64,000 nt of DNA from Desulfosporosinus acidiphilus SJ4 (lineage in GTDB: Bacteria > Bacillota > Desulfitobacteriia > Desulfitobacteriales > Desulfitobacteriaceae), in NCBI RefSeq assembly GCF_000255115.2, contig NC_018068.1:4621977-4685976 (forward strand). The letters run 5' to 3'. The stretch's first letter is position 1. Each line of letters begins with the position of its first letter. Below, piece by piece: positions 13,571-18,231 of the stretch. The position numbers and the translations under genes are program-made. The notes beneath the pieces were generated by a model. The model saw nothing but the letters and a program-made list of their open reading frames with translations, was not told the DNA's origin and ran no database searches.

Positions 13571-14812
13571 TTGAGTTTATTTGTCGGTATAGATGTGAGT
13601 TCCAGTGATTTTAAAGTGCGAATCTTAGATGAGCGTGGTAATGAACCAGTTAAAAGGCTAAGGGTTTTGAATGATCAGCCTGGTTGTGAGCAAGTTGCCC
13701 GATATCTCTCTGAAGCCTGTAATAAAGAGAATGAGGACCGGCTGGTTATTGGTTTAGAGGCCACTTCCGTGTACAGTTGGCCGTTACAAATGTTCTTAGC
13801 GGAAGACCATTGTTTAGCACCTTTACAGCCCCAAATTTATTCCTTTAACCCCAAGGTCGTTGCTAATTTCAAAAAGGCTTATGTGGACCTTCCGAAGAAC
13901 GACTGGATTGATGCCTGGGTCATTGCCGAACGTTTACGCTTCGGCCGGCTCCCGGAGGGCTCTCAGGTCGATTTCCGCTACTTACCGTTACAGCGACTCA
14001 CTCGCTTTCGTTGTCATCTGATCGAGATGATCTCCAGAGAGAAGAATTATTTCCTCACGAACTTGTTCTTAAAGTTTAGCACTCTTGCCCAAGGTACGGT
14101 TTTTAGTAATACTTTCAGCGTTACTTCTGAATCCTTGACACTTGAGTTTTTTTCTCCAGAAGAGGTTGCGGCTCGACCGCTTGATGAACTGATTGATTTC
14201 CTCATGGAGAAAGGAAGAAGTCATTTCGAGGATCCGGAAGCCAAAGCCAGAGAGTTGAAGGAAGCCGCTCGCAAGGCCCATCGACTACGTGGAAGCCTAT
14301 TGCAACCCATTAACCTTATCCTAGCCACGAGCATCGAAACCATCCACACTTTAGAGAAACAGGTCAAGAAAATCGATAAGGCGATCGAAGCTGAAATCAG
14401 GCATTTCCCTAATACGCTCATTACCATTCCCGGTATTGGCCCTGTGCTTTCAGCTGGTATTATTGCTGAGATTGGAGACATCCGCCGTTTTCCGAATGAA
14501 GGAGCCTTAGCAAAGTTTATTGGGCTAACCTGGCGTTCTCACCAGTCCGGTGATTTTACAGCCGATGACACGCCCTTAACTCGAACCGGCAACACCTACT
14601 TGCGAAGTTATATCATCCAGGCTGCTAACCTAGTACGCCAAAAGGAACCAGAGTACAAAGCCTTCTACCAACGTAAATTCTCGGAAAGTAAGACTCACCA
14701 TCATCGCCGTGCTCTCGTGCTTACTGCACGCAAACTCGTCCGTATGGTTGATGCTCTGCTACGCAGCAACCAAATCTATATGCCACATGGCAATAGGGGG
14801 ATTGCAAACTAA
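13571..14812 (+). CDS. IS110-family transposase (DEDD recombinase)
   Basis: This is an intact 413-residue transposase. The N-terminal RuvC-like DEDD domain shows D8 in FVGIDVSSSDF, E63 in GLEATSVYSW, and D111 and D114 in KNDWIDAWV. The C-terminal Transposase_20 domain carries IPGIGPVLSAGIIAEIGDI and TWRSHQSGDF with LTRTGNTYLR, including the conserved Ser region. The start is TTG (13571-13573) with AGGTG eight bases upstream. Long non-coding DNA lies before the gene, as in the IS110 subgroup rather than IS1111. The element may be active, since no frame disruption is seen. Its exact ends are not identifiable from this single copy. Confidence 0.92.
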   Translation: MSLFVGIDVSSSDFKVRILDERGNEPVKRLRVLNDQPGCEQVARYLSEACNKENEDRLVIGLEATSVYSWPLQMFLAEDHCLAPLQPQIYSFNPKVVANFKKAYVDLPKNDWIDAWVIAERLRFGRLPEGSQVDFRYLPLQRLTRFRCHLIEMISREKNYFLTNLFLKFSTLAQGTVFSNTFSVTSESLTLEFFSPEEVAARPLDELIDFLMEKGRSHFEDPEAKARELKEAARKAHRLRGSLLQPINLILATSIETIHTLEKQVKKIDKAIEAEIRHFPNTLITIPGIGPVLSAGIIAEIGDIRRFPNEGALAKFIGLTWRSHQSGDFTADDTPLTRTGNTYLRSYIIQAANLVRQKEPEYKAFYQRKFSESKTHHHRRALVLTARKLVRMVDALLRSNQIYMPHGNRGIAN

Positions 14813-16255: not shown

Positions 16256-16612
<357 letters not shown>

Positions 16613-16650: not shown

Positions 16651-17880
16651 TTAGATAAAGTCGGGATATGCTTCTTCTCCATGCAGCGACAAATCCAGAC
16701 CAATGGCCTCTTGGTCTTCACTGACACGCAGTGTCGTGAAGAGTCCGATGACCTTCAAAAGTATCCAAGACCCAATTACAGCAAAAGCCACTGTAGCTGC
16801 AACGCTTAAAGCCTGGATTCCTAACTGGGACGGGTTGCCGTACAAGAGTCCGTTAGCGCCGGCAGGATTAATGGCCTTTGTGGCAAAAATACCGGTGGCT
16901 AGGGCTCCCCAAGTACCGCCAATTCCATGACAGCCAAAAGCATCTAAAGCGTCATCATAGCCGAATTTCGCCTTCATCACACTAATGGTCAGATAACATA
17001 TGACACCTCCGATAAAACCAATGAGGATTGAAGAAAGGGGCGTCACAAATCCTGCGCCCGGTGTAATGGCTACTAATCCTGCCACAGCACCACTGGCAGC
17101 GCCTAAAACCGTCGATTTTCCGCGATGATAACGTTCTACCACAGCCCAGGCTATTGCCGCGGCAGCGGCAGCCGTATTGGTATTAACCAAAGCTATACCG
17201 GCTAATCCGTTGGCCCCCAAGGCACTTCCGGCGTTAAACCCGAACCAGCCAAACCACAAAAGACCAGCTCCTAAGATGGTAAAAGGAATGTGATGGGGAG
17301 CCATGGAATCTCTGCCCAGACCTTTACGTTTTCCCAGGACCAGAGCCACTATCAGACCAGAATAACCAGAACTGATATGAACCACATTTCCGCCTGCAAA
17401 ATCTAAAGCCCCCAGGTTTCTTAAAAAACCGCCTACACCCCAAACCCAATGTGCCAAGGGGTCATAAATCAGCGTCGCCCAGAGCAGTGTAAAGATAATA
17501 AAGGCCGGAAAGCGCATCCGTTCAGCAAATGAACCGCTGATCAGTGCAGGAGTTATTACAGCAAACATCATCTGAAAAGCCATGAAGACAATGGCGGGAA
17601 TTGTCGCAGCATAATCTGGGTTAGGGGCTGCCCCAACTCCATTGAGGCCCAGCCAGTTCAGACTGCCGATTATACCATGAAAATCCGGCCCAAAGGCTAA
17701 AGTATAACCTATTAAAATCCACTGTAATGATATAAGTCCAATAATAATCCAACTATGCATAATTGTGCTGAGAACATTCTTTTTGCGAACCATGCCTCCG
17801 TAAAAAAATGCTAAACCAGGCGTCATTAAAAGAACAAGAGCCGTTGACACCAAGACAAACGCCGTATCTCCTGTATTCAT
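16651..17880 (-). CDS. amt: Ammonium transporter Amt
   Basis: This 409-residue AmtB-type channel has eleven membrane helices. Family motifs are TPGLAFFYGGMVRKKNVLSTIMHS, DFAGGNVVHISSGYSGLIVAL and DALDAFGCHGIGGTWGALATG, the last carrying a pore His; the first pore His lies in NVVHISSG. It imports ammonium under nitrogen limitation and is gated by the PII protein encoded next. The start is ATG 17878-17880 with AAGGAGG eight bases upstream. A leader of about 125 nt contains an intrinsic terminator that overlaps an ANTAR-like hexaloop hairpin, indicating antitermination control. Confidence 0.96.
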   Translation of the reverse strand: MNTGDTAFVLVSTALVLLMTPGLAFFYGGMVRKKNVLSTIMHSWIIIGLISLQWILIGYTLAFGPDFHGIIGSLNWLGLNGVGAAPNPDYAATIPAIVFMAFQMMFAVITPALISGSFAERMRFPAFIIFTLLWATLIYDPLAHWVWGVGGFLRNLGALDFAGGNVVHISSGYSGLIVALVLGKRKGLGRDSMAPHHIPFTILGAGLLWFGWFGFNAGSALGANGLAGIALVNTNTAAAAAAIAWAVVERYHRGKSTVLGAASGAVAGLVAITPGAGFVTPLSSILIGFIGGVICYLTISVMKAKFGYDDALDAFGCHGIGGTWGALATGIFATKAINPAGANGLLYGNPSQLGIQALSVAATVAFAVIGSWILLKVIGLFTTLRVSEDQEAIGLDLSLHGEEAYPDFI

Positions 17881-17902
17881 CAATTATACCTCCTTAAACA
17901 AA

Positions 17903-17950
17903 AATGGCGCTTTGAGTTCACTCTAAAAAGAGTTAACTCAAAGCGCCATT
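17903..17950 (-). terminator. Attenuator terminator in the amt leader
   Basis: A 16-bp perfect stem continues after one mismatch by 5 bp to a TTTT loop (minus strand). It is followed directly by TTTTTG and then the amt ribosome-binding site. As it lies between promoter and start codon, it is a transcription attenuator and not an end-of-operon terminator. Confidence 0.85.
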
Positions 17951-17987
17951 GCTTTGTCTGCTTATACTTTTTCCTTAAACTGAGTAT
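17939..17987 (-). promoter_or_regulatory. Candidate ANTAR-type antiterminator hairpin pair in the amt leader
   Basis: On the minus strand, 17939-17956 reads CAAAGC-AATGGC-GCTTTG, a perfect 6-bp stem with a six-base loop having A at position 1 and G at position 4. This is the recognition rule of ANTAR RNA-binding regulators. Its 3' arm is the 5' arm of the attenuator, so the two are mutually exclusive. A weaker upstream hairpin (17964-17987, ATAC..TTT-AAGGAA-AAA-GTAT) also has an A1/G4 hexaloop and would be P1 of the usual pair, seven bases away. Confidence 0.65.
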
Positions 17988-18012
17988 CGGCTGTGCACGC
18001 CTTATGAGTGGT

Positions 18013-18042
18013 ATTCTAGCACGCCCAAAGACTTTTTGGCAA
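18013..18042 (-). promoter_or_regulatory. amt-glnK promoter candidate
   Basis: TTGCCA (18037-18042) and TAGAAT (18013-18018) are spaced by 18 bp and read toward amt. This would give a leader of about 125 nt that includes the antiterminator and attenuator. Confidence 0.5.
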
Positions 18043-18231
18043 CCCCTAATTGTTAATGAATTTTGTATACCTGATCTTCTCTTCACTTGTCGCAAAAATA
18101 ATACTTATATAATAATTATTCTTCTAAAATGAGCAGATATAGAAATTCGCCCTCCTTCGGGTGATTCCATTTATGGTCCCCTAAATAACCTACACCAATA
18201 TACCAATATAATACAAAGTAAGTTCCCAAAC

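Follow-up and report, generated by a model that had tools for sequence, protein, structure and literature searches.

A probable ANTAR-type attenuator with a single hexaloop hairpin ahead of amt-glnK in Desulfosporosinus acidiphilus

The stretch of DNA analysed here (the window, 64,000 nucleotides of the Desulfosporosinus acidiphilus SJ4 genome) carries an ammonium transporter gene, amt (hereafter amt-1), and the P-II protein gene glnK. The leader of these genes, for which an earlier note on this DNA had proposed an ANTAR-controlled antitermination switch while giving no strand, lies on the minus strand and comprises the following features.

16256..16597, minus: glnK, P-II protein (Pfam PF00543)
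16651..17880, minus: amt (amt-1), ammonium transporter, 409 aa from the ATG at 17880 (Pfam PF00909)
17889..17895, minus: Shine-Dalgarno sequence of amt, AAGGAGG, just 3′ of the terminator (from the sequence)
17904-17900, minus: T run after the amt-1 terminator (from the sequence)
17903..17950, minus: intrinsic terminator hairpin of 48 nt (from folding)
17939..17956, minus: P2 antiterminator hairpin CAAAGC[AATGGC]GCTTTG with an A1/G4 hexaloop (from folding and conservation)
17968..17979, minus: first hairpin of the earlier note, TTT[AAGGAA]AAA, not supported by folding or by relatives
17989..18001, minus: 5′-terminal hairpin GGC-GTGCACA-GCC, whose loop is not of the A1/G4 kind (conserved)
18013..18042, minus: predicted sigma-70 type promoter TTGCCA-18-tgcTAGAAT, kept across the genus
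18056..18070, minus: conserved box GTATACAAAATTCAT, a candidate operator 5′ of the amt-1 promoter (from the sequence)

The amt-1 transcription start is predicted at about 18006-18005. A GTATACA..ATT-type box is also found 5′ of amt-2, amt-3, and other leaders; the TGTATACA..ATT-type box lies upstream of the -35 element in amt-1, amt-2, amt-3, and one glutamine synthetase III leader, and occurs in other families of the order as well (loci L062, L226, L255, L259, L260, and L244), which makes it a candidate operator of some nitrogen regulator. Elsewhere in the window, an open reading frame at 13571-14812, between a chemotaxis receptor gene and clpP, resembles an IS110-type transposase when its translation is read by eye.

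The two central elements of the leader were confirmed by folding. The 48-nt terminator that the earlier note had placed ahead of the amt ribosome-binding site folds at -31.9 kcal/mol (shuffle z -11), and the AATGGC hairpin that it had described as sharing an arm with this terminator does have a perfect 6-bp stem, its 7-bp form reaching -7.2 kcal/mol (z -3.5 against shuffles). The 3′ arm of P2 is part of the 5′ arm of the terminator, so that the two hairpins are mutually exclusive, and P2 thus has the layout of an ANTAR target, in which an A1/G4 hexaloop hairpin overlaps an intrinsic terminator. A search of Rfam with the whole window and with the leader gave no family at gathering score and no credible match at E values of up to 10.

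Every one of the 29 genomes of the genus has an ortholog of this amt, and orthologs also occur in further genera of the order. Of the amt-1 leaders, two that had diverged and one truncated at a contig end were set aside; the 25 that were compared all keep the promoter, the hexaloop hairpin, and a conserved 5′ end, the A1/G4 hexaloop of P2 staying together with the terminator in 25/25. The terminators are plain in nearly all of them, with a disturbed 3′ arm in two (L006 and L010). The loops read AATGGC in 16 leaders, AAAGGC in 4, AAAGAC in 3, and AATGAC and AACGAC in one each. The paralog amt-2 (C3:585632 in the same genome) has the same design on another stem, GAGC[AANGRN]GCTC, in 22/22 leaders, the amt-1 and amt-2 hexaloop counts both resting on orthology. 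Taken together, the loops of the two genes follow A-A-N-G-R-N, with A1, A2, and G4 fixed and position 3 free, and other families of the order carry leader hairpins such as AGGC[AACGGG]GCCT and similar forms.

The stem of P2 shows covariation. Across 39 distinct hairpins, both sides had changed in 36 cells as compared with 13.9 in shuffles, and the covariation score was reached by 0/500 shuffles; the two closing pairs are invariant, while one stem pair is A-U in 29 hairpins and G-C in 10, and the next is A-U in 17 and G-C in 17. Positions G5, C6, A7, A8, G10, G13, and C14 are invariant in this alignment, partly because its sequences were in part selected with the pattern GCAANGRNGC.

A pattern for the hairpin with a shared-arm terminator was then run over 73 genomes of the order and gave 430 matches, not all of which are real leaders. 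Since a backwards-pattern control was considered not stringent enough where terminators are concerned, two purpose-made controls accompanied the search: breaking the 5′ arm (CG for GC) left 139 matches, threefold fewer, and changing G4 to C with the terminator kept left 55, approximately eightfold fewer, the latter pattern being about two-fold stricter at one base. These controls bear on the possibility that terminator sequence, with its A-rich foot and G+C stem, yields the hexaloop as a by-product, and that the terminator is constitutive and no switch exists. In terminators, an A-rich foot paired with the U tract is common, which would lend this possibility some plausibility; yet the 5′ arm of P2 lies outside the terminator and nevertheless covaries with it, and both controls cut the matches sharply, all of which makes a mere by-product very improbable.

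Leaders of this kind are not confined to amt-1 and amt-2. They also stand before genes for a type III glutamine synthetase, additional ammonium transporters, amino-acid permeases, and a peptide-binding protein, before that of a MocR-type regulator, and before others. In some leaders, two or three units follow one another in tandem. At L243 and L261, near-identical hexaloop-terminator units are repeated two to three times, one array lying before the MocR-type (GntR-aminotransferase) regulator.

The earlier note had paired P2 with a second, upstream hairpin, as in a canonical dual-hexaloop target, where a weak or degenerate first hairpin, either TTT[AAGGAA]AAA or CAU[AAGGN]GUG, would be needed along with P2. 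Precedent speaks for such a pair: the ANTAR RNAs predicted in 2012 upstream of amt and P-II genes, including those ahead of ammonium transporters, were all dual hairpins (Ramesh et al. 2012, PMC3369931), and current definitions of ANTAR targets ask for two stem-loops, loose ones allowing 3-bp stems and linkers of 2-25 nt (PMC8164766). The hairpin named in the earlier note, however, does not hold up. TTT[AAGGAA]AAA consists of three A-U pairs and is missing from the minimum-energy fold of its own region, which has -0.6 kcal/mol and is equalled by 102/200 shuffles; sought in the leaders of relatives, it was present in none and is therefore peculiar to the window's species.

A canonical first hairpin (P1) was likewise sought in amt-1, amt-2, and amt-3 leaders and not found, and a second A1/G4 hairpin at a short linker upstream of P2 is usually lacking. 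The amt-1 leader has space enough for a degenerate one, and A1/G4 hairpins of at least 3 bp occur upstream of P2 in 9/25 amt-1 leaders against 2.7 in shuffles. Six of these nine are the CAT[AAGGTT]GTG of a single clade, which would favor a pair; in most other species, the window's included, the same element is the pentaloop CAU[AAGGN]GUG, the best remaining amt-1 candidate. This element is broken in L011, sits at the very 5′ end of the amt-1 RNA about 30 nt from P2, and competes with a better 5′ hairpin, GG(T)-[GTGCAC(A)]-RCC. The latter, represented in the window by GGC-GTGCACA-GCC, is kept wherever the 5′ element of an amt-1 leader can be read. Across leaders L002-L027 it appears as AUAAGG-[GUGCAC(A)]-RCC, which is not an ANTAR loop, and its stems lengthen on both sides together (GGT/RCC, GGTG/CACC, GGTTG/CAACC).

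The sister leaders leave still less scope for a first hairpin. In amt-2, where the predicted -10 box lies 20-30 nt upstream of P2, an upstream A1/G4 hairpin was found in 1/22 leaders, against a shuffle mean of 1.3. In amt-3, the sequence TATAATAACCGTAATGAGC[AAAGGC]GCTC is near-identical in four species (D. acidiphilus and three relatives), promoters included. Its hairpin begins just 9 nt past the predicted -10, at the predicted RNA start or no more than a few nucleotides from it, so that no first hairpin fits; a second hexaloop-terminator unit follows downstream of the first. The leader of a GNAT acetyltransferase gene in the same genome (L227, C3:1721499) similarly has a single hexaloop 10 nt past the -10, with no room for P1. 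Many sister leaders thus have no room for a first hairpin, provided that the predicted promoters are right, and a genome-wide search for the dual-hexaloop pattern gave few matches. In view of these data, we consider a required pair of hexaloops unlikely.

Several observations on these sister loci are worth recording in their own right. The amt-3 leader of the same genome (L226, C3:1215907) is followed by an apparent ammonium transporter remnant and an intact glnK, and an ammonium transporter gene occupies the amt-3 position in G001, G002, and G007. A leader peptide was considered for amt-3 and rejected by eye on four sequences, the frame being open in L226, broken in L259, and not kept elsewhere. 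The GNAT protein of L227 is possibly of the phosphinothricin/methionine-sulfoximine type, with a possible link to the protection of glutamine synthetase.

As for the protein partner, a six-frame search of the genome found exactly one ANTAR domain (58.3 bits, C3:3102221), far from amt, and an ANTAR gene is present in 28/29 genomes of the genus. The exception, G018, is 85% complete and has both amt leaders. The encoded protein of 191 aa combines an ANTAR domain (PF03861, 55.1 bits) with a receiver-like N-terminus (PF00072, 34.6 bits), and its matches in the PDB are Mycobacterium tuberculosis Rv1626, Enterococcus faecalis EutV, and Pseudomonas aeruginosa AmiR. It has the composition of an ANTAR response regulator, and when aligned with the EutV residues listed as contacting RNA (PMC8934654), it mostly keeps them: Arg142, Lys143, Glu160, Tyr164, Arg168, Met172, and Arg175 are retained, while Lys147 and Lys149 are replaced by Gln and Leu, which we count against our preferred reading. 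The phosphoacceptor Asp of a phosphorylation-controlled regulator is Gly in this protein and in all orthologs examined, making control by phosphorylation unlikely. In a single-sequence structure model the receiver is poor (mean pLDDT 56), and residues 131-190 form a confident long helix with two further helices. Many genomes of the genus carry a second ANTAR type (glnA-type), in which Ser or Asn replaces the phosphoacceptor Asp, and which in G013 (L036) is placed after a glutamine synthetase gene; the sole ANTAR gene of D. acidiphilus belongs to the other type and has no glnA nearby. Across the genus, the ANTAR proteins (L001 1477-2052 and orthologs L046-L058) have pseudo-receivers.

The distribution of the pattern across genomes points in the same direction. 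Genomes with an ANTAR gene have 6.6 matches each (control 2.1) and those without, such as G034, have 2.2 (control 0.9; p = 0.003), the ANTAR-less genomes being few and partly incomplete and the genomes not being independent samples. Outside the genus the association is weak (p = 0.06) because ANTAR genes are near-universal in the order. When the pattern matches outside the genus were folded one by one, 18/33 in ANTAR-bearing genomes and 6/20 in ANTAR-less genomes proved to be true shared-arm terminators (p = 0.10), a comparison that favors ANTAR-bearing genomes and is suggestive only. These results also bear on whether the attenuator is real but answers to another effector, be it a different RNA-binding protein, a small molecule, or translation of the leader. 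The conserved non-ANTAR hairpin at the 5′ end of amt-1 and the presence of P2 in G018, a genome in which no ANTAR gene turned up, would accord with such an effector. Against this, A1 and G4 are the very determinants published for ANTAR targets, the excess of pattern matches tracks ANTAR genes, Rfam offers no match, and no frame is kept across the four amt-3 leaders (by eye); we therefore regard a non-ANTAR effector as quite unlikely.

The proposal of ANTAR-type attenuation is thus well supported by the one ANTAR gene and by the hexaloop and terminator kept together in orthologs, and an ANTAR-type attenuator at amt-glnK is likely; the hexaloop pair is not supported, as AAGGAA occurs in one species and many sister leaders lack the room. 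Our preferred reading, to which we assign a probability of about 0.6, is that the leader works through one hexaloop hairpin; the binding of an ANTAR protein, antitermination by a single hexaloop, and the nitrogen signal are all what we infer. By default, the nascent RNA would form the strong terminator 17950-17903, and transcription would end before amt. Once the hairpin emerges, an active ANTAR protein, most likely the product of C3:3102221, would grip AATGGC via G4 and hold the 5′ arm of the terminator in the P2 stem, so that RNA polymerase could read on into amt and glnK, presumably when nitrogen is short. A second A1/G4 hairpin would not be needed, and further genes of the order, among them amt-2, amt-3, and that of type III glutamine synthetase, would use the same one-hexaloop design. 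It seems to us an even bet that nitrogen genes across the order are controlled by a large family of natural ANTAR attenuators with a single hexaloop, some of them beginning within the first few nucleotides of the RNA and others arranged in tandem arrays, and that the recruitment hairpin of the EutV model is dispensable.

ANTAR attenuators before nitrogen genes are already known, and the single-hexaloop attenuator is the variant; the literature searched contained no ANTAR study on bacteria of this order. The leaders described here provide a conserved, genome-wide set of candidates for natural single-hexaloop targets with a simple layout and clear predictions, and they suggest a nitrogen regulon for the order that includes several amt genes and glutamine synthetase III. 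If the reading is true, many ANTAR targets have escaped dual-hairpin covariance searches, and the recruitment-hairpin model does not hold for antitermination in general.

A GlnR-type antiterminator, an ANTAR protein, is encoded downstream of clostridial glnA. The ANTAR protein beside the glutamine synthetase gene in G013 resembles this arrangement, unlike the only ANTAR gene of D. acidiphilus, which is of another type and lies away from glnA. The closest mechanistic detail comes from EutV: in the EutV-RNA structure, one dimer contacts one hexaloop, mainly at G4, and EutV binds single hexaloops in vitro, whereas in E. faecalis in vivo both hexaloops are required and antitermination is lost when the linker is 20 nt longer (PMC8934654). 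The same study reduced the definition of the minimal ANTAR site to one hexaloop, left the need for two in vivo unexplained, and asked how far natural single-hexaloop motifs play a part (PMC8934654). The requirement for two in E. faecalis would count against a single-hexaloop reading here. As in the eut leaders controlled by EutV, the 3′ arm of the A1/G4 hairpin is the 5′ arm of the terminator, and the ANTAR protein has a receiver; unlike in those leaders, where two hairpins 5-12 nt apart are required, there is usually one hairpin, some hairpins lie at the predicted RNA 5′ end, and the receiver has Gly for the phosphoacceptor Asp. Similarly, the ANTAR RNAs predicted in Firmicutes such as Desulfotomaculum precede P-II, amt, and glutamate/glutamine synthase genes, overlap terminators, and occur as several units per transcription unit, but dual hairpins were required in that search (PMC3369931), so that single-hairpin leaders like the present ones would probably escape it. 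NasR-nasF and AmiR-amiE likewise exemplify ANTAR-domain antitermination in nitrogen genes, AmiR also having a pseudo-receiver (PMC8934654), although their target RNAs are dual hairpins, unlike the leaders described here.
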